DNA of 57,284 nt from an uncultured Lachnospiraceae bacterium (GTDB taxonomy: Bacteria > Bacillota > Clostridia > Lachnospirales > Lachnospiraceae): NCBI GenBank assembly GCA_902801415.1, contig CADCIK010000005.1, positions 1-57,284 on the forward strand. Direction: 5' to 3'. The position numbers and the translations under genes are program-made. Positions 25,844 through 51,543 of the stretch are shown here, piece after piece. The first letter of the stretch is position 1, and every line of letters begins with the position of its first letter. The notes below the pieces were generated by a model. It was not told the DNA's origin. It searched no databases and was given only the letters and a program-made list of their open reading frames with translations.

Positions 25844-27343
25844 ATGCGTACAAGCGGAATTCTGTTCCCGATCTTCAGTCTTCCCGGCAAATACGGGATC
25901 GGCTGTTTTTCGGAGGAGGCGTATAAGTTTGTAGATTTTCTGAAAGAAGCGGGTCAGACCTATTGGCAGATCCTGCCGCTGGGCCCTACCGGATACGGGG
26001 ATTCGCCCTACCAGTCTTTCTCGACCTTCGCGGGGAATCCGTATCTGATCAGTCTGGAAGACCTGATCGCACAGGGACTTCTGACAGAGGAAGAGTGTGA
26101 CGCGGAGGATTTCGGGGACGGCAGGGAAGTCGACTACGGCAAGCTCTATAACAGCCGCTGGGACATGCTCAGGAAAGCGTATAAGAGAAGCGGGTATAAG
26201 GAAACCGCAGAGTTTGCGGCGTTCGTGAAGGACAATGCATTCTGGCTGACCGATTACTCCCTCTTTATGGCGGTCAAGGATGTCCACGGAGGTGCGGGAA
26301 TGGATGACTGGGAGCCGGCCATCCGGGATCACAAGGAGAAAGCAGTTGCCGAGTGGTCTGAGAAACTTCGGGAAGAGACCGGTTTCTATGAGTACCTGCA
26401 GTTTGAGTTCGCGAGGCAGTGGAAGAAGCTCAGGGATTACGCGACAGAGAAAGGAATCCGGATCATTGGTGACATTCCGATCTATGTGTCGGCCGACAGC
26501 TCGGACTTCTGGGCTCACAGAGAGCTCTTCCAGCTTGACGCCAGGGGCCGCATCCGCATGATCGCGGGCGTCCCTCCGGACGGCTTCTCTGCAACCGGGC
26601 AGGTCTGGGGCAATCCGCTGTACAACTGGGATAAGCACAAGGAGACCGGATATGACTGGTGGATCCGCCGCATCGCCAAGTGCAGAGAACTCTATGACGT
26701 CATCAGGATCGATCATTTCCGCGGGTTTGATGAGTATTTTGCCATTCCGGCAGAATCGGATACGGCAGCGACCGGCCATTGGGAGAAGGGCCCCGGCACA
26801 GACCTGTTCGACGCCATCAAGGCCAGCCTTGGTGAGACGCCGATCATTGCGGAGGATCTGGGCTATGTGACGGAGACGGTGCGTCAGCTGGTCCGCGATA
26901 CGGGCTTCCCCAACATGAAGGTCCTGGAATTTGCGTTTGACTCGAGAGACTCGTCCGGCGCTATGGAGTACCTGCCCTATCGCTATCAGCGCAACTGTGT
27001 GGTCTACACGGGAACGCATGATAACGAGACCTTGCGCGGATGGATCGACAGCATTCTCCCTGTGGAGAGAAAGCAGGTCTGCGAGTATCTGGACGTCAGG
27101 ACCAAAGACCCGCAGGAGATCGTGGAAAAGATGATCATCGCGGCGTTTGGTTCCGTTGCGGATTACTGCATCATTCCGCTGCAGGACTACCTGGGGCTGG
27201 ACAACAGCGCGCGCATTAACCAGCCGTCCACGAACGGCAAGAACTGGAAGTGGCGCGTGAACAAAAAGGATCTGTCCGCCAAGCTGGCCGGCCGGATCGC
27301 AGCTCTGACAGCTCTATATGGCAGAATGCCGGAAGAGAACTGA
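25844..27343 (+). CDS. malQ: 4-alpha-glucanotransferase, GH77 (499 aa)
   Basis: A cytoplasmic disproportionating enzyme that transfers alpha-1,4-glucan segments and so processes imported maltodextrins. GH77 catalytic motifs are present: the nucleophile Asp in VIRIDHFRGFDEY, the acid/base Glu in IIAEDLGYV and the stabilising Asp in TGTHDNETLRGW. Length and frame are normal. GGAAAGGAAGG lies upstream of the ATG, and the gene is tightly linked to yesL (2-nt gap). Confidence 0.97.
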   Translation: MRTSGILFPIFSLPGKYGIGCFSEEAYKFVDFLKEAGQTYWQILPLGPTGYGDSPYQSFSTFAGNPYLISLEDLIAQGLLTEEECDAEDFGDGREVDYGKLYNSRWDMLRKAYKRSGYKETAEFAAFVKDNAFWLTDYSLFMAVKDVHGGAGMDDWEPAIRDHKEKAVAEWSEKLREETGFYEYLQFEFARQWKKLRDYATEKGIRIIGDIPIYVSADSSDFWAHRELFQLDARGRIRMIAGVPPDGFSATGQVWGNPLYNWDKHKETGYDWWIRRIAKCRELYDVIRIDHFRGFDEYFAIPAESDTAATGHWEKGPGTDLFDAIKASLGETPIIAEDLGYVTETVRQLVRDTGFPNMKVLEFAFDSRDSSGAMEYLPYRYQRNCVVYTGTHDNETLRGWIDSILPVERKQVCEYLDVRTKDPQEIVEKMIIAAFGSVADYCIIPLQDYLGLDNSARINQPSTNGKNWKWRVNKKDLSAKLAGRIAALTALYGRMPEEN

Positions 27344-27415
27344 CCGGAGGAGAAGGTACCGAAACCAAGGATTAACCGTGAGACAATAGGCAGGCTCTTT
27401 GATTTGGAGGTAAGT

Positions 27416-29080
27416 ATGAAAAAGACCTGGTGGAAAGAAAGTGTAGTATATCAGATCTATCCCCGAAGCTACGCGGACAGCAACGGCGACGGAATCGGCG
27501 ACATTAACGGGATCACGTCCAAACTGGATTACTTAAAGCTGCTCGGTATTGACGTCATCTGGCTCTCCCCCGTCTATAAATCGCCCAACGATGACAACGG
27601 CTATGACATCAGCGATTATGAGGCGATCATGGATGAGTTCGGCACCATGGAGGATTTTGACCGGATGCTGAGTGAGGCGCATGCCCGCGGGATCAAGATC
27701 GTGATGGACCTCGTTGTCAACCACACGTCCGACGAGCATGAGTGGTTCCTGGAGAGCCGCAGCAGCAAGGACAATCCCAAGAGAGATTATTACTTCTGGA
27801 GAGAAGGCAGGGACGGCAAAGAGCCCAACAACTGGGGCTCCTGGTTCTCCGGTTCCGCGTGGAAGTACGATGAGACGACGGATATGTACTACCTGCATCT
27901 GTTCTCTCCCAAACAGCCCGACCTCAACTGGGACAATCCCGCTGTCAGAAAGGAAGTTTTCGATATGATGACCCGCTGGTGCGAGAAGGGAATCGACGGC
28001 TTCCGCATGGACGTCATCAGCCTGATCTCCAAGCCGGCCGGCCTGCCCGACGCGCCGCTCATGAACGAGCTCTACGGTGACTGCGGATGCACGGCCAACG
28101 GGCCTCACGTCCACGAGTACCTGCAGGAGATGAACGAGAAAGTTCTCTCCAAATTTGACATTATGACCGTCGGCGAGACGGCGTGCGTCACGCTCGAAGA
28201 GGCCAAAAAATACGCCAACAGCGAAGGCACCGAGCTCAACATGGTCTTCCAGTTCGAGCATGTAGGTCTCGACGGAGACGCGGAGTTCAAATGGTCCACC
28301 AGAAAGATGCCGCTCGTGCCGCTCAAGGAGAACCTTACCAAGTGGCAGAAGGGTCTGGATGAAGTGGCCTGGAACAGCATTTTCTTCTGCAACCACGATC
28401 AGCCCCGTGTGGTCAACCGTCTGGGTGATCCTTCCGACGAATATCGCGAAGTATCTGCCAAGTGTATCGCGACCTGCCTGCATATGATGCAGGGAACGCC
28501 ATACGTATACCAGGGCGAAGAACTGGGCATGACCAACTATCCCTTCCAGTCTGTAAAGGACTTCAACGACCTTGAGTCGATCAACGCTTACTATGAGCTG
28601 ACGGAGAAGATGGGGTGGAAACCCAGTGAGATCTTCCCCAAGATCGCCAACAAGAGCCGCGACAACGCCCGCACACCGATGCAGTGGGACGATTCGCCCA
28701 ACGCAGGTTTCACTACAGGAAAGCCCTGGCTGGCCGTCAATCCCAACTACAAGAAGGTTAACGCCGCCGAGCAGGTTGCGCGCGCGGATTCCGTCTTCAA
28801 CTACTACAAGAAGCTGATCGAGCTGCGCCACAAGTACGAGATCATCGTCTATGGCCACTACGATCTGCAGCTTGCGGAGGACCCCGAGCTCTATGTCTAT
28901 ACGAGAGAGCTGGATGGGAAAAAGCTTCTGGTCGTCTGCAATTTCTCTGACAATGAGAGAGAGTTCATGCCGGATGAGGAGTTCAGGAACGGCGAAGTGC
29001 TGATCCAGAACTATGAGGGAAGCGACGTCTTTGACGGAATACTTTCGCCTTATGAAGCGTATGTCATTTATACTGAATGA
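27416..29080 (+). CDS. malL: Oligo-1,6-glucosidase / dextran glucosidase, GH13_31 (554 aa)
   Basis: A cytoplasmic alpha-glucosidase cleaving short isomalto-oligosaccharides. The catalytic triad aligns closely with Bacillus oligo-1,6-glucosidase: D199 (GFRMDV), E254 (TVGETA) and D328 (CNHDQPR). The residue after the nucleophile is Val (V200), which in this subfamily favours alpha-1,6 over alpha-1,4 bonds. The ATG at 27416 is chosen over the in-frame TTG at 27404 because GGAGG lies at 27406-27410. It is the last gene of the alpha-glucan operon, followed by a terminator. Confidence 0.94.
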   Translation: MKKTWWKESVVYQIYPRSYADSNGDGIGDINGITSKLDYLKLLGIDVIWLSPVYKSPNDDNGYDISDYEAIMDEFGTMEDFDRMLSEAHARGIKIVMDLVVNHTSDEHEWFLESRSSKDNPKRDYYFWREGRDGKEPNNWGSWFSGSAWKYDETTDMYYLHLFSPKQPDLNWDNPAVRKEVFDMMTRWCEKGIDGFRMDVISLISKPAGLPDAPLMNELYGDCGCTANGPHVHEYLQEMNEKVLSKFDIMTVGETACVTLEEAKKYANSEGTELNMVFQFEHVGLDGDAEFKWSTRKMPLVPLKENLTKWQKGLDEVAWNSIFFCNHDQPRVVNRLGDPSDEYREVSAKCIATCLHMMQGTPYVYQGEELGMTNYPFQSVKDFNDLESINAYYELTEKMGWKPSEIFPKIANKSRDNARTPMQWDDSPNAGFTTGKPWLAVNPNYKKVNAAEQVARADSVFNYYKKLIELRHKYEIIVYGHYDLQLAEDPELYVYTRELDGKKLLVVCNFSDNEREFMPDEEFRNGEVLIQNYEGSDVFDGILSPYEAYVIYTE

Positions 29081-29267: not shown

Positions 29268-31646
29268 GTGATATGGTTTCAGCGCTTTTACCTGGATAAA
29301 GAAAAGGATGTGATCGTGGATCTGTACAGAGAGCGCGGGGGGATTATGCGCTTTGTCCTTTCTACGCCTAACCACGGGACCGGGAATCTGATCCGGAACC
29401 TGGCTGCGCTCTGCGGGCTGCCGCTCTCAGAGGGAAGCGACGGACTCCTGGTCATCCGGGGAACCGTTCCCAGTTATATCGACGGCTATAACAGACAGCT
29501 TTATATATTCCGGCTCGGAGATACGAAGGTGGCCAACATCTACCCGGACGGGCGCGTTGAGATCAAGGCGCAGATCCCGGCGATCTCCAAGACGCTGATG
29601 AGCCAGACCAAGGACTACCGCCTCGACGAAAAGAGGACCATCGTCAAGACATATATCCGCACCGAACTCAAATTCCGCACGGATCTCCATACACATATGA
29701 ACGCCAATCTCCACCCCGATCTTCTGATCGCGCTGGGGATCTGTCATCAGATCCGCTATCCGCTCTACTATATCAAAAAGCTCGGCCTGCGCTGTACCAA
29801 GGCGCAGCAGGAAAAGCTCGCAGAGCGGCGCAGTCTGTCGGAGGCGCAGTACAAGGACTGCGGTCTGACCGGCAAGTATCTGACCCGAAGGATCGATGAC
29901 AATACATTTCTGAATTTTGCCGACCTGATCCTGAATGATCCGGAGGACGCGGCCTGCAATATCCCAAGGATCCGGAGATCGCTTGCCATCCTCAAGGACG
30001 GGCAGGCCGTATTCACCAATCTGGAAAAGGTATATCTCTACCGTTATGTTTTTGCCAAGGGCGTGAAAGCTGACGACCCTATGCCGCTTGACCGCGAAAG
30101 TATCGATCAGATTCCGGACGCGGACATCAGGGCCGCTGTGATCCAGATCCTGGAGGACCGGAAATCTCCGGCCTACCGGGACAATACGCTGTTTCAGGAC
30201 AAGCTCCTATGGATCGCGCGCAGCTACGCGAAGCAGGGAGTCTGCTATGCGGAAATCTCGGACACGACCCTGGTCAAAAAACAGGGAGCAGCCCAAATGC
30301 TCTCTCAGGTACACGCCGTCATGCCTGCCATTACAAAGGAGACCGGCGTGCTGCTCCGTTTTCTGGCAGCGATCCGCCGCATTCCGCTGACGATCGTCAA
30401 AGACCAGGTGGAGACGGGAGACTATTTCCGGGAGAATCTGGAGACATTGGAAGAGGTGATCACCGATCCCTATGTGGCGGGAAGCGATATCATCGGAGAG
30501 GAACTCAACGATATAAGGGATATCGCACCGGTAATCCACGAGATCGTGCGGATCGCGCAGGCAGATCCAGGATTTGTGATAAGGGTCCATGCCGGTGAGA
30601 ATGACGGGCTGCGCGACAATATCGCCAACAGTCTCCGATGCATAAAAGAAGCGCTGGCTCCGGGGCAGAAGATGCCTGTAGTCAGGATCGGGCACGGTCT
30701 GTACACGCCGGACCTGCGCCGCGGCAAGGGAAAGGCGCTGATCAAAGAACTTACGGAGAGCGGCGCTGTTCTTGAGTTTCAGATCACCTCCAATGTGCGG
30801 CTGAACAACCTGAGCGGCATGAGGAACCATCCGCTTCGCCAGTATCTGGCCTATGGAATCCGATGCGTGCAGGGGACAGACGGAGGCGCGATCTACGGGA
30901 GTGACTCGATCGACGAACAGCTCTCGCTGGAGAAGATGCTGGGCCTGTCCGATGAGGAGATGCTCCGGATGCGGAAGGCGGAGGACGCCGTTCTTGAGGC
31001 GAGCCTTCACACTTTTGAAAGAAAAGTCGCGGAATTCGATGAGAAGAACCGGACTGAAATGCACGAGATCGATCACAGGATCTCCCTGATCGGAAAGCGC
31101 TCCCTGCGGGCGGCGGACGCTCTGGCGGAGCAGATCCGCGAGCTGCCATTGGACGGTGAACCGATCGTGATCATCGGCGGAAGTTTCAGCCATGATAATC
31201 ACAGGGTCAGGATGACAGAAGAGAATAAGAGGAGGATCGACCGGCTGCTTGAGAGGGAAGATCCGGAGAAGGTGTTTTTTGTCATCGGTCACGCGCTGCG
31301 CGGCTACGAACAGTACCTGGTCAGGAAGAACCGCGGCCGGTTCCGCATCTTCGCAATGGTGCCGTCTATGATCACGGAGGCGGAGTGCCGGAAGCTGCGC
31401 GGAAGCAAGGCAGGTATCCGCGTCTCCATTGAGCCGGTTCCAATGGGCACGTATAAGAGCTTCGCCTATGAGATCTTTAAGAGGAGACCGTCCAGGCTGA
31501 TCGCGTTTGACGGAAACATTGCCGGCGCCAACATGATCCAGGAGGCGAGAAACAGCAAGTATCCCTGCACCATCTATGTGAGCGCGGGATGCAGAGCGCT
31601 GAAAGTGAAAGCCGATTCCCTCGAGGGATATGTGAGATTGTTCTGA
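29268..31646 (+). CDS. Large adenosine/AMP deaminase-like protein with unknown N-terminal and Rossmann-like C-terminal domains (792 aa)
   Basis: The middle of the protein is an adenosine-deaminase-like metal-dependent hydrolase: H141-T-H143 (DLHTHMN), H441-A-G-E444, H476 (RIGHG) and D538 (QGTDGG), the metal ligands and catalytic Glu of that fold. The second Asp of the usual TDD is Gly, and the HxH-to-HAGE interval is far longer than in standard deaminases. Residues 1-~125 match nothing I know. Residues ~625-792 look like a separate alpha/beta domain starting IVIIGGSFSHDN, possibly SLOG-like. GTG at 29268 has GAGGAG 11 nt upstream; ATG at 29346, behind a G-rich stretch, is an alternative start. 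It is monocistronic. The substrate is unknown; a nucleotide-signalling or defence role is speculation. Confidence 0.7.
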   Translation: MIWFQRFYLDKEKDVIVDLYRERGGIMRFVLSTPNHGTGNLIRNLAALCGLPLSEGSDGLLVIRGTVPSYIDGYNRQLYIFRLGDTKVANIYPDGRVEIKAQIPAISKTLMSQTKDYRLDEKRTIVKTYIRTELKFRTDLHTHMNANLHPDLLIALGICHQIRYPLYYIKKLGLRCTKAQQEKLAERRSLSEAQYKDCGLTGKYLTRRIDDNTFLNFADLILNDPEDAACNIPRIRRSLAILKDGQAVFTNLEKVYLYRYVFAKGVKADDPMPLDRESIDQIPDADIRAAVIQILEDRKSPAYRDNTLFQDKLLWIARSYAKQGVCYAEISDTTLVKKQGAAQMLSQVHAVMPAITKETGVLLRFLAAIRRIPLTIVKDQVETGDYFRENLETLEEVITDPYVAGSDIIGEELNDIRDIAPVIHEIVRIAQADPGFVIRVHAGENDGLRDNIANSLRCIKEALAPGQKMPVVRIGHGLYTPDLRRGKGKALIKELTESGAVLEFQITSNVRLNNLSGMRNHPLRQYLAYGIRCVQGTDGGAIYGSDSIDEQLSLEKMLGLSDEEMLRMRKAEDAVLEASLHTFERKVAEFDEKNRTEMHEIDHRISLIGKRSLRAADALAEQIRELPLDGEPIVIIGGSFSHDNHRVRMTEENKRRIDRLLEREDPEKVFFVIGHALRGYEQYLVRKNRGRFRIFAMVPSMITEAECRKLRGSKAGIRVSIEPVPMGTYKSFAYEIFKRRPSRLIAFDGNIAGANMIQEARNSKYPCTIYVSAGCRALKVKADSLEGYVRLF

Positions 31647-31762: not shown

Positions 31763-32326
31763 ATGGAAGATACCGCAATCATCGATCTGTACTGGAAGAG
31801 GGACGAAAGAGCCATCGAAGAGACAGACCGCAAATATGGAAATTATTGTTACACAGTAGCGGACAACATATTGAGAAGCCGCGAGGACTCGGAGGAATGT
31901 GTCAGCGACACATGGCTGCGGGCCTGGAATTCGATGCCTCCTCAGAGGCCTTCTATTCTGCGCGCTTTTTTGGCCAAGATCACGAGAAATCTGGCTTTTG
32001 ACCGCTACAGAGCAAGAAGCGCCGCCAAGCGTGGAAACGGCACGATGGAGGCGGTGCTCGACGAGCTGGCAGAGTGCGCGGATACGTCCGGCAATTGGGA
32101 CGCGGTGGAAGCGTACGAGGCCAAAGAACTGGGAGAGGCGATCGGAAGATTCGCGAGAGAACTCCCGGACAAGGAGGCAAGGCTGTTTGTGAGGAGATAC
32201 TTCTTTTCTGAGGCGACTTCTGACATTGCCCGGCGTTATCAGATGACGGAGAACAATGTCACGGTGAGCCTTAGCAGGATCAGAAAGAAACTCCGCAAGT
32301 ACCTGACAGAGGGGGGATTTATGTAA
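31763..32326 (+). CDS. ECF-type RNA polymerase sigma factor (187 aa)
   Basis: Region 2 spans about residues 15-80 (DRKYGNYCYTVADNIL, SDTWLRAWNS, ARSAAKRG after RNLAFDRYR) and region 4 about 130-185 (DIARRYQMTENNVTVSLSRIRKKL helix-turn-helix). There is no region 1 or 3, as in ECF factors. Its stop overlaps the start of a membrane anti-sigma-like protein by one base. It should direct polymerase to a small set of envelope-stress-like promoters, including its own. Confidence 0.93.
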   Translation: MEDTAIIDLYWKRDERAIEETDRKYGNYCYTVADNILRSREDSEECVSDTWLRAWNSMPPQRPSILRAFLAKITRNLAFDRYRARSAAKRGNGTMEAVLDELAECADTSGNWDAVEAYEAKELGEAIGRFARELPDKEARLFVRRYFFSEATSDIARRYQMTENNVTVSLSRIRKKLRKYLTEGGFM

Positions 32327-33153
32327 TGAAAGCGGAGGACCTTTACAAAGCAATGGAAGGGATCGACGATGAGTTGATCCTGCGAAGCGAACACAGAATA
32401 GAGACTGCCCGGGAAGAGGAAGAAGAGGCGGAACGCAGGAAAAAACGCAAAGCGAAGAACAGCAGAGCGAGATTTCACCGGTACTTTACGATCGCCGCGA
32501 CGACAGCGGCTGCCGTTTTCCTGCTGCTTATGGCCAGAGAACTGGCAGGCGCCCGCGGTCTAAAGAGCGCAAAGAGCAGCAATCTGACCTCCGGTACGGT
32601 GGCGCAGAGCCAGGATGACCAGTATATGGCGGAGGCAATGGAAGAAGCGGCGGCAGAGGAAGAAGCGATGCCGGAGACTTTCTCCGAAAGCGCCGAAGAT
32701 ACTGTACAGGATAACGATTCTGTACAGAGCGAAGAAGCGGCCGCTCCCGTCGAGGCAGAAGTGCCTGCTGAAGAGAGCGTGCAGGATAAGTCGCTGGCAG
32801 AAGATGCCGGAAAGACTGCAGTGGACCTGCTGGGAGAGATGGCGGATGAATATGTCGCCCTCGAGTATATCTCGGCAGAGGATGAAGCCAAGGGCGGAGC
32901 CAGGACCGTGCCCGACTATACCAAAGCCGGTGAGGCGGCGCTGTCAGCCGCATTTGAGAGCGGCAGGGCCGAGCCTTCTTTCCTGGCCAAGAAAGGAAAA
33001 CCTGTCTACTATGTTTATCTGACCCGAAAAGGCGGGCAAGTGAACAAGGCTACATTCTATGAGAATGAATATATCAGTCTGGACAGTATTCCCGGCGTGG
33101 TCATGAAGATTTCACATGCGGAATATGAGGCGGTGATGCAGCTGTTCCGCTGA
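32326..33153 (+). CDS. Membrane protein, probable anti-sigma factor partner (275 aa)
   Basis: The N-terminal ~45 residues are cytoplasmic, highly charged and begin MKAEDLYKAMEGIDDELIL, the pattern of short sigma-binding segments encoded next to ECF factors in Clostridia. One membrane helix follows (about 49-67, TIAATTAAAVFLLLMARE), then a Glu/Ala-rich external linker (~95-165) and a small folded C-terminal domain. The 1-nt overlap with the sigma gene implies coupled, stoichiometric synthesis. The anti-sigma role is inferred from context and topology. Confidence 0.75.
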   Translation: MKAEDLYKAMEGIDDELILRSEHRIETAREEEEEAERRKKRKAKNSRARFHRYFTIAATTAAAVFLLLMARELAGARGLKSAKSSNLTSGTVAQSQDDQYMAEAMEEAAAEEEAMPETFSESAEDTVQDNDSVQSEEAAAPVEAEVPAEESVQDKSLAEDAGKTAVDLLGEMADEYVALEYISAEDEAKGGARTVPDYTKAGEAALSAAFESGRAEPSFLAKKGKPVYYVYLTRKGGQVNKATFYENEYISLDSIPGVVMKISHAEYEAVMQLFR

Positions 33154-33166
33154 AGGGAGGAGTAGC

Positions 33167-34339
33167 ATGAAAAAGAGATTTGTGGTGCCTGCGGTTCTTG
33201 TAATGGCGATGTGCCTTTCCGGATGCGGCCATTCCGCTTCCTACAGCGAGGCACCGTCTGCATCGTATATGAAGGAAGACATGGAATACGCGGCGGAGGA
33301 AGCGGCGTATGATGTGGCGGATGGCACATACATGGCCGATGCTGAAGCTGCCATGGAAGCGGGCGGCGCCATGAAAGACAGCGGCTCGAACGGCGAGGAG
33401 ACGTCCGCGCTGCGGGCGCAGGACGGCCAAAAGATCGTCTACACGGGAAACCTCAGTATTCAGACACTGGAATATGACAAGTCCGCGGCGAGCATCCGCA
33501 AAAAGATCCGGGAAGCCGGCGGCTTTTCCGAGTCGGAAAGCGAAAGCGACAGAGACTATAACTGGTACAGATATTCTACCGGATCAAGCAGTACCAGAAG
33601 CCTGAGCATTACGGCAAGGATACCTTCCGAGAAGTTCGAGTCCTTCATGGACTCCCTCAGCGGTGACGGAAAGATCATGAACCGCTCTATGAACGCGGAG
33701 AATATCAGCCAGGTCTATGCCAACAAGGAGACCTACAAAAAGGCGCTCGAGAAGGAGCAGGAGAGACTGCTGGCTATGATGGACAAGGCGGAGACGATCG
33801 AGGATATGATCGCCGTGGAGTCCAGACTTTCGGATGTGGAGCGTCAGCTCAACGCGTACAAGACCGATCTCTCGGCTATGGACAAAGATGTCCAGTATTC
33901 CACCATCTATATTGACCTGCAGGAAGTCAAGCGTTACTCCGATGAAACGCCTACGACAACATTCCCGGAAAAGGTCAAATATGCCTTTGAAGACGCGATC
34001 AGCACCTTCAGGGATTTCTGCGAGGGCATTATTCTGTTCGTCGTCAGATCCTTCCCCTTCCTGATCCTTCTGGGAATCGTGATCGCACTCCTCATCAGGC
34101 AGGCTAAAAAGAGCCAGGCTAAGAAGATCGCCATGATGTCCGATCCGGAATACGCGAAGATGATGAACGAGAAGGCGCGCGCAAAAGCGGAAGCGGATGC
34201 AAGAAAACGGGCTGCCAGAGAGGCAAAGCGCCGGAACAGAGGCGGACTTTTCGGAAAGAAGAAGGAGACAGACCCGGTTCTTCCCGCGCAGGAAGCGCCG
34301 AAGGACAAGCCTGATACAAACCCGGATGAAAATGAGTAA
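33167..34339 (+). CDS. DUF4349 lipoprotein with C-terminal membrane helix (390 aa)
   Basis: The lipobox CLSGC places the acylated Cys at position 20. A DUF4349 domain follows (KIVYTGNLSIQTLEYDKS, ARIPSEKFESFMDSL, with a coiled-coil-like AYKTDLSAMDKDVQYSTI stretch). A single membrane helix (about 283-305) precedes a basic, Lys/Arg-rich cytoplasmic tail. The protein is therefore held at both ends of its external domain. It sits 13 nt after the anti-sigma-like gene with a GGGAGGAG site. DUF4349 proteins are frequent companions of ECF sigma/anti-sigma pairs; their function is not established. Confidence 0.88.
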   Translation: MKKRFVVPAVLVMAMCLSGCGHSASYSEAPSASYMKEDMEYAAEEAAYDVADGTYMADAEAAMEAGGAMKDSGSNGEETSALRAQDGQKIVYTGNLSIQTLEYDKSAASIRKKIREAGGFSESESESDRDYNWYRYSTGSSSTRSLSITARIPSEKFESFMDSLSGDGKIMNRSMNAENISQVYANKETYKKALEKEQERLLAMMDKAETIEDMIAVESRLSDVERQLNAYKTDLSAMDKDVQYSTIYIDLQEVKRYSDETPTTTFPEKVKYAFEDAISTFRDFCEGIILFVVRSFPFLILLGIVIALLIRQAKKSQAKKIAMMSDPEYAKMMNEKARAKAEADARKRAAREAKRRNRGGLFGKKKETDPVLPAQEAPKDKPDTNPDENE

Positions 34340-50546: not shown

Positions 50547-51473
50547 TTAATCTGTATATAAATGCCGAACCCGTGCAAATACTTTATGAAAGTCAATACG
50601 ACATGTTCCATTTGATATTGCGACAGGCACTTCATCCTCGAAGCTATAGGAGGTCGGAAGTACATCATGTTCAAAGTCAAAAACAAGGATTTTCCTGCCG
50701 TCCGGATCCACAATCCAGTACTCCCGCACTCCGCTGCGCCGGTATAGATTCTGTTTCAGCCAGAGATCATATTGAGGATTAGAAGGGGAGAGGACCTCTA
50801 ATACAAAATCAGGGGCTCCGTGATGCGGAGAACGCAGTTCTCTTTCCCTGCTGCAGTGAATATACAAGTCAGGTTGGACAACAGTGTTGTTATCGTCACC
50901 CAATTCGACGTCAGAAGGCGCGAGATAAAGAAAGCAGGTATCTCTGTGATTTTCAATACAGTTGTCAAGCTGTACGAAGATTCCCTGAAGGACTCCCTGA
51001 TGCAGCTTGGAGGGAGAGGCCATATTATAAAAAACACCGTCTATCAGTTCTACGCGCTGATTGTCGGGAAGGTCATAATAGTCGTCAAGAGTGTATTCTC
51101 CTGTCCGCCCCATTGCTAAATTCGAGTAACTGTAACCTGTTAATGCCTCTTTGACCATCCCTTTCATGCTATGATCCGGAAGGTCGTCATAGATGAAACC
51201 GGCATTCTCGGACAAATCTGCAGCGGAGGACTGCGCTTTCCTGCCCAAACTGTCTTCACAACAGCTTGAACCATACAGGCGAGGTTCCGCCCTGCGCTTC
51301 TCCTCCGAAAAAAGTGCTGATTCAATAGCCTCCAGAGTAAGCTTCCTCGGGGCCTTTGTAGCACCGCTCATGATCTTCTGCACTGTGCTCAGCGGAAGAT
51401 CAGCGGCTTTCGCGATCATTTCATTAGTGAGGCCTAAAGCGGTTTTCCTGTTCTTTAATTCTTCAATTGTCAT
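50547..51473 (-). CDS. Helix-turn-helix protein fused to a Uma2 (DUF820) nuclease-fold domain (308 aa)
   Basis: The first ~65 residues form a Cro/C1-type HTH (LGLTNEMIAKAADLPLSTVQKIMSG). A linker to ~120 leads to a Uma2 domain of the PD-(D/E)xK fold: ELIDGVFYNMASPS, QPDLYIHC, PDFVLEVLSPSN and KQNLYRRSGVREYWIVDPDG give the Asp, Glu and Lys of that fold. Members have no assigned biochemical role. The fusion suggests a DNA-targeted nuclease or a toxin/defence regulator, but this is inference. GGAGG precedes the ATG at 51473; the longer in-frame start enters the promoter. Confidence 0.88.
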   Translation of the reverse strand: MTIEELKNRKTALGLTNEMIAKAADLPLSTVQKIMSGATKAPRKLTLEAIESALFSEEKRRAEPRLYGSSCCEDSLGRKAQSSAADLSENAGFIYDDLPDHSMKGMVKEALTGYSYSNLAMGRTGEYTLDDYYDLPDNQRVELIDGVFYNMASPSKLHQGVLQGIFVQLDNCIENHRDTCFLYLAPSDVELGDDNNTVVQPDLYIHCSRERELRSPHHGAPDFVLEVLSPSNPQYDLWLKQNLYRRSGVREYWIVDPDGRKILVFDFEHDVLPTSYSFEDEVPVAISNGTCRIDFHKVFARVRHLYTD

Positions 51474-51514
51474 AACAGCCTCCAACAGAAAAAACAAACA
51501 AACGTTCTGCCTGT

Positions 51515-51543
51515 AATATAACTGCAAATCACACAAAAGTCAA
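51515..51543 (-). promoter_or_regulatory. Promoter of the HTH-Uma2 gene
   Basis: On the minus strand TTGACT (51543-51538), 17-nt spacer, TATATT (51520-51515), 42 nt before the ATG. Confidence 0.75.

Follow-up and report, generated by a model that had tools for sequence, protein, structure and literature searches.

A solitary fusion of a modified adenosine-deaminase barrel and a SLOG-like domain in scattered gut bacteria

A three-part gene and its setting

The window analyzed here is a stretch of 57,284 nucleotides from the genome of an uncultured Lachnospiraceae bacterium (2.39 Mb in 116 contigs, 86% complete). It carries a gene for a 792-amino-acid protein whose parts are listed in Table 1. 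The gene is confirmed as real. The sequence AGAGGAG is located 11 bases 5' of the GTG start of this open reading frame, and a start codon is at the same position in several close relatives.

Table 1. Parts of the deaminase gene, in window positions
Feature	Position	Strand	Remark or basis
Whole gene, 792 aa	29268..31646	+	GTG start, stop included
N-terminal domain, about residues 1-126, beta-rich (model), opens FYLDKEKD, no known relatives	29268..29645	+	
Adenosine-deaminase barrel, about residues 137-589 (H141, H143, H441, E444, H476, D538)	29676..31034	+	Pfam, Foldseek, alignments
Extra helical segment of window-type proteins, within about residues 177-309, limits approximate	29796..30194	+	model, intervals
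Linker, about residues 590-625, poorly conserved	31035..31142	+	23% mean pairwise identity
C-terminal SLOG-like domain, about residues 626-792, GGSFSHDN and DGNIAGANMIQEA loops	31143..31643	+	model, Foldseek

A maltose/amylase cluster is situated 5' of the gene (glucanotransferase, 25844-27343; alpha-amylase, 27404-29080). Directly 3', at 31763-34339 on the plus strand, are genes for an ECF sigma factor, a 275-amino-acid protein with no Pfam match over the cut-off, and a DUF4349 protein. The window shares this maltose/amylase-to-ECF-sigma setting with eight further loci (80-90% identity), nine in all, and the three genes on the 3' side stay with the deaminase gene in close kin only. Elsewhere in the window (50547-51536, minus strand), a Uma2-type putative restriction endonuclease domain is fused to a helix-turn-helix.

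The N-terminal domain is beta-rich in a model of the whole protein, and 84 of 89 family proteins carry the motif FYLDKE[K/R]D. The original prediction regarded the first ∼125 residues as novel, and they indeed have no Pfam or PDB-sequence match above chance. As a guess, this domain might serve assembly or recognition.

A modified barrel followed by a SLOG-like domain

The central part of the protein is an adenosine deaminase (ADA) barrel. Pfam A_deaminase (PF00962) matches residues 317-570 (1.3e-17), and ADA structures rank first when the whole-protein model is searched with Foldseek (TM-scores of the top four, 0.69-0.70 by target length). The six metal-site residues, which were predicted to be kept in full, do not vary among the 32 aligned window-type proteins or among the 19 members of a more diverse aligned set.

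In contrast, the substrate side differs from that of ordinary ADAs at two sites. The change of TDD to TDG after the catalytic Asp had been predicted, and Gly occupies this second site in 89 of 89 family proteins; these open reading frames were chosen by requiring HAGE and TDG, and one such frame is present at all 89 loci examined. The change is larger than was claimed, as the position equivalent to mouse Asp19 is also altered in all 89, the window's protein included (Asn in 81, Ala in 4, Ser in 4). For comparison, a CARF_ADA search provided 28 control loci from the same class. Of these, 27 gave a protein matching the family profile, of which 3 are family members and 24 are other deaminase-family proteins; the remaining locus (L141) gave none and was left out. 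TDG occurs in none of the 24, which have D-D (10) or D-N (14) instead. The 17 ADA-type controls (L124-L140) carry Asp (16) or Glu (1) at the first site, and all 17 combine Asp/Glu after HxHx with Asp/Asn after the catalytic Asp, a combination found in 0 of 89 family proteins.

The other seven controls (L142 and L144-L149) lack Asp at the first site. They form a separate deaminase-fold group of 313-341 amino acids from several Clostridia genomes, in which HAGE is replaced by HVGE or HLGE and HxHx is not followed by Asp-Gly. Thus, loss of the first-site Asp is not unique to the family, whereas the second-site Gly is absent from every other protein examined. Because 7 of 24 other deaminase-family proteins share it, the first-site loss alone is no proof of a phosphorylated substrate. 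With both substrate-side aspartates changed, however, and by analogy with TaqCad1, discussed below, it is reasonable to infer that the barrel acts on a phosphorylated nucleotide.

The unusually long interval between HxH and HAGE, taken in the original prediction to imply a large insert, is also borne out. From the second His to HAGE there are 298 residues in the window protein and 214 and 240 in diverged ones, compared with 160-184 in 23 of the 24 other deaminase-family proteins (the 24th did not fit the pattern). The length is due to the extra helical segment in window-type proteins. The spacing from H476 to D538 is 62 residues, and the equivalent spacing is 58 in an ordinary ADA (L125).

Canonical bacterial ADAs share the PF00962 barrel and the metal site with the family, but the family has the insert, two additional domains and changes at both substrate-side aspartates. 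The window protein scores 48.7 bits against the canonical model TIGR01430, far under the cut-off of 216.55 bits. Although the HxH, HAGE, His and Asp motifs of the metal site are all present, identification as a canonical ADA was rejected because of this score and the two changed aspartates.

The C-terminal region was folded alone from 18 aligned sequences and models as a domain of its own rather than as an extension of the barrel (pLDDT 87.2, pTM 0.83), in agreement with the predicted separate SLOG-type domain. The top 14 Foldseek rows for this model are all DprA, molybdenum-cofactor carrier, TRPM or YgdH proteins, which we take to be members of the SLOG superfamily. The E-values are modest (best 1.8e-3, none ≤0.001), and unrelated proteins appear from rank 15. 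Pfam LSDAT_prok matches the C-termini of 3 of 18 relatives (best 3.4e-4), with the scores shown (16.1 and 19 bits) lying under the cut-off of 25.4, and a YspA-type SLOG model gives one match among the 18 sequences (0.079). The C-terminus of the window protein itself has no Pfam match, and when the C- and N-terminal alignments were used as profiles against the PDB, only chance-like matches came back. The structural model supports a domain that is SLOG-like by fold.

LOG-type nucleotide hydrolases carry the motif PGGxGTxxE. Neither this motif nor even GGxGT is found in any of the 89 family proteins, and therefore sensing is favored over catalysis by the SLOG domain. SLOG domains often sense signaling nucleotides. 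In Thoeris they are described as detecting signals of the cyclic ADP-ribose type (PMC9503650, PMC12948488), whereas SLOG proteins of the LOG clade are hydrolases (PMC9503650). The latter function raises the prospect of a bifunctional nucleotide destroyer, in which the barrel would deaminate an adenine nucleotide and the SLOG domain would cleave off the base in the manner of LOG/YgdH-type enzymes. The C-terminal domain does have YgdH among its best structural matches, but given the missing hydrolase motif we consider such an activity improbable.

Relatives, neighbors and transfer between phyla

A peptide pattern matched 396 genome-contig stretches, 344 of which encode relatives. For the best 80 of these 344, the best segments are 58-90% identical and cover essentially the whole 792-amino-acid query; the closest named relative among the matches listed (L024, 90%) is from an uncultured Lachnospiraceae bacterium. 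Mean pairwise identity among 32 aligned proteins is 69% in the N-terminal part, 66% in the barrel, 55% in the C-terminal domain and 23% in the linker. No characterized salvage deaminase, which would have spoken against the original prediction, appeared as a full-length homolog in the libraries searched.

Profile searches also identified full-length proteins with the same three-part order in another family of the Clostridia. Identity to the window protein is 25-27% for four of these (L116, L118, L119 and L120), or 24-26% in a second alignment that includes L117. In a profile comparison, L110, which is the same gene as L116, matched with a probability of 100 over 661 columns. One of them (L120:3686-6370, plus strand) is an 895-amino-acid subtype with a much longer barrel-to-SLOG linker and a long branch in the tree. 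Identities of 50-52% were found for three proteins (L121-L123) belonging to yet another, third family of the Clostridia. The diverged relative at L117:6064-8970 (minus strand) extends well over 100 residues beyond the SLOG domain, which suggests a putative additional C-terminal domain. In one genome, two full-length copies of the family gene are present on two contigs (L081 and L096), and the genome of L060 has an extra partial copy on a separate contig.

Carriers are uncommon. The gene is present in 18 of 299 genomes of the window's family (Lachnospiraceae), in 8 of 291 of its class (one with the diverged type) and, at a stricter threshold, in 2 of 398 of its phylum; diverged types occur in 5 of 197 genomes of their own family. 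For a comparison with rpoB, 27 genomes were chosen, rpoB was obtained from 23, and 21 were compared. Deaminase identity exceeds rpoB identity between the window and L078 ('Coriobacteriaceae'; 61.7 vs. 53.3), between the window and L041 ('Erysipelotrichaceae'; 64.5 vs. 52.8) and between L059 and L078 (71.0 vs. 56.5). Many pairs within the Clostridia show the reverse (e.g., 59.6 vs. 75.8 for the window and L092). In a quick tree, 11 Actinomycetota rows are nested inside Bacillota and Erysipelotrichaceae appear in about five places; the taxon labels are those of record titles, the tree carries long-branch warnings, and binning errors in metagenome-assembled genomes are possible. Because deaminase identity exceeds rpoB identity, horizontal transfer of the gene across phyla, as a solitary unit, is well supported by these comparisons. 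The Coriobacteria copies form one clade in the quick tree, suggesting that the gene may be stably retained there. Such a scattered cross-phylum distribution fits an accessory gene, but a metabolic role is possible.

Carriage on phages or plasmids was considered and rejected, because phage records gave no match to the window protein or to the diverged L110 protein and plasmid matches are partial and distant (12 for the window protein, 26-32% identical, none over 80% of the query; none for L110). Two scans of viral contigs, made with short peptide patterns that could miss divergent relatives, confirmed no relative. Nothing in a viral structure library matched at E ≤ 0.001, and PHROGs gave nothing for the window protein.

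The neighborhoods of the homologs were surveyed for a partner gene, and none recurs: outside the nine syntenic loci, no neighbor family is present in more than 7 of 89 loci. The largest recurring family is a transporter at scattered positions. A neighbor lies on the same strand within 60 bases upstream in 21 of 85 cases and downstream in 28 of 84; the family gene may thus be cotranscribed here and there, with differing genes. A set of 135 neighboring open reading frames from 62 loci was searched with PADLOC at 1e-5, which returned 19 families with 1 to 3 reading frames each (viperin-like, WYL, TIR, RmrA and others). By these raw counts, taken without a background rate, known defense genes are rare among the neighbors. 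The commonest Pfam families are MatE (the most common), HAD, radical SAM and patatin, and the neighbors are mostly ordinary chromosomal genes. As in the original prediction, which had set the protein apart from RADAR and Cad1, no RdrA-, CARF- or other partner gene recurs beside the family gene in the 89 loci or in the PADLOC search of the 135 neighbors. The latter includes no cas gene except one WYL regulator. Overall, a modified ADA barrel is joined in this family to an N-terminal domain and a SLOG-like domain, and the fusion gene stands alone and moves horizontally.

Ordinary neighbors would also be expected of a metabolic enzyme. Such a deaminase would act on adenosine, AMP or a related compound in purine salvage or catabolism and be regulated allosterically, the SLOG domain responding to nucleotide levels. 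Of the 299 genomes of the window's family, 82 encode a protein that scores over the TIGR01430 cut-off for canonical ADA; these are 1 of 18 carriers (G234) and 81 of 281 noncarriers (Fisher p 0.03). When sub-cut-off ADA matches are counted, the difference shrinks to 3 of 18 vs. 92 of 281 (p 0.20), and neither test is corrected for phylogeny. No other PF00962 gene is seen in the window genome at its 86% completeness. The scarcity of canonical ADA in carriers counts against a pure defense reading. Against a metabolic role stand the loss of both substrate-side aspartates of ordinary ADAs, the TIGR01430 score far under the cut-off, and the fact that purine genes do not recur beside the family gene in the 89 loci. 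We regard this explanation, the main rival to the reading favored below, as possible, though on the unlikely side. If it is true, the protein may explain how adenine compounds are handled in some gut bacteria without canonical ADA.

Possible functions and comparison with known systems

The reading that we favor, tentatively and with somewhat less than even confidence, is a purine deaminase that is encoded by one gene and gated by a ligand. A nucleotide-derived ligand would bind to the C-terminal SLOG domain and thereby switch on the barrel, which is predicted to be metal dependent from its conserved residues. The barrel would then convert an adenine nucleotide carrying phosphate into its inosine counterpart; ATP, dATP and AMP are the likeliest substrates. 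Alteration of the adenine-nucleotide pool would in turn arrest growth or phage replication, making the protein a possible growth-arrest or defense effector. The protein may be a self-contained switch that alters the adenine nucleotides of the cell, with relatives scattered across unrelated gut bacteria.

Several observations argue for a gated deaminase: the invariant metal site together with the two changed aspartates, which point to a phosphorylated nucleotide as substrate; the SLOG-like fold and the weak LSDAT_prok matches in diverged relatives; and a patchy distribution (18/299) with deaminase identity above that of rpoB across phyla. By analogy, TaqCad1 also lacks Asp19 and acts on ATP (PMC12669630). 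Other observations argue against it. No partner recurs in 89 loci, and known defense genes are rare among the 135 neighbors; carriers tend to be without canonical ADA, as would be expected of a metabolic replacement; the single Coriobacteria clade suggests stable retention; the SLOG matches have E-values no better than 1.8e-3, and the window's C-terminus lacks a Pfam match; and the second-site Gly differs from the Asn of Cad1.

Cad1 is one of the closest known systems, and the family most likely works like it, by sensor-gated deamination of a phosphorylated adenine nucleotide. Both fuse a deaminase barrel to a Rossmann-type nucleotide-sensor domain and have lost the Asp19 equivalent. TaqCad1, with Gly at the first site and Asn at the second, is described as converting ATP while leaving AMP and ADP untouched (PMC12669630). 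The Cad1 sensor is an N-terminal CARF domain, whereas that of the family is C-terminal and SLOG-like; the family also has an extra N-terminal domain and Gly rather than Asn at the second site, and its neighbors include no recurrent cas genes. A CARF identity was rejected, as the PADLOC CARF_ADA match covers the barrel only and the same model matches ordinary ADAs (up to 3.2e-54). Cad1 membership was likewise rejected, with no match for the N-terminus and, among the 135 neighbors searched with PADLOC, no cas gene save the one WYL regulator.

RADAR RdrB, like the family, has an ADA barrel whose core is split by a large insert and which is extended at the N terminus, and its residues H152, H154, H498, E501 and H530 parallel H141, H143, H441, E444 and H476 of the window protein (PMC9994260). 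Its substrates are given there as ATP and dATP, and further details of RADAR and Cad1 appear in PMC11645235. A dodecameric shell is a further hallmark of RdrB. That the family is a diverged RdrB is nevertheless very hard to credit. PADLOC returned no RdrB match up to E = 1, although its library may hold no RdrB model; no RdrA-like neighbor recurs, and no RdrA is among the PADLOC matches of the 135 neighbors. Moreover, the third insert of RdrB follows the final His, whereas the His-to-Asp interval of the window protein (62 residues) is close to that of the ordinary ADA L125 (58), and the relevant sections of PMC9994260 do not mention a SLOG domain for RdrB. The family thus shows neither an RdrA partner nor an insert separating the final His from the Asp, and it has a SLOG domain.

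ATP-deamination immunity is known from these two systems, and neither works alone: RADAR requires RdrA, and Cad1 a signal made by CRISPR. In a single-gene protein with a built-in SLOG domain, signal-gated purine deamination could be tested by one gene and one ligand screen. A one-gene immune effector, in which a SLOG-gated ATP/dATP deaminase senses an infection-linked nucleotide signal, changes the pool of adenine nucleotides and has spread horizontally among gut Bacillota and Coriobacteria, is unlikely; if true, it would be a third route to ATP-deamination immunity beside RADAR and Cad1, with no partner gene needed. The original prediction had pointed to conflict systems and named the protein a candidate for an undescribed system. 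Its three-part architecture and suspected SLOG domain are borne out, but a role in conflict is conjectural, as no partner recurs and known defense genes are rare among the neighbors scanned.

In Thoeris ThsA (SIR2-SLOG), the enzyme domain precedes the SLOG domain. The family shares this order within one chain, but its enzyme is a deaminase rather than SIR2, for which the window protein has no Pfam match, and it has no recurrent TIR partner. Thoeris membership was rejected because SIR2 is not matched and a TIR gene was identified beside only one (L054) of 62 loci scanned. The family is therefore not a member of RADAR, Cad1 or Thoeris, nor is it a canonical ADA. With a SLOG-deaminase fusion, the range of enzymes known to be linked to SLOG sensors would extend to a deaminase; no description of a fusion of SLOG with an (adenosine) deaminase was found in open-licence literature, PMC12948488 and PMC7159879 included, although an earlier mention elsewhere is possible.

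A sensor and a deaminase in one chain, with an altered substrate side, could also make a signal remover: the SLOG domain would capture an adenine-containing second messenger and the barrel would deaminate the messenger, so that the signal ends. This idea is improbable in our judgment, as no messenger synthase recurs beside the gene and TIR is found at one locus only. There, a TIR gene (L054:2-634, plus strand; Pfam TIR_2, 4.2e-23) that is open at the start of its contig lies upstream with a gap of 55 bases to the family gene, and a gene for a HerA-like ATPase is located downstream. The TIR neighbor is a lead, not a pattern.
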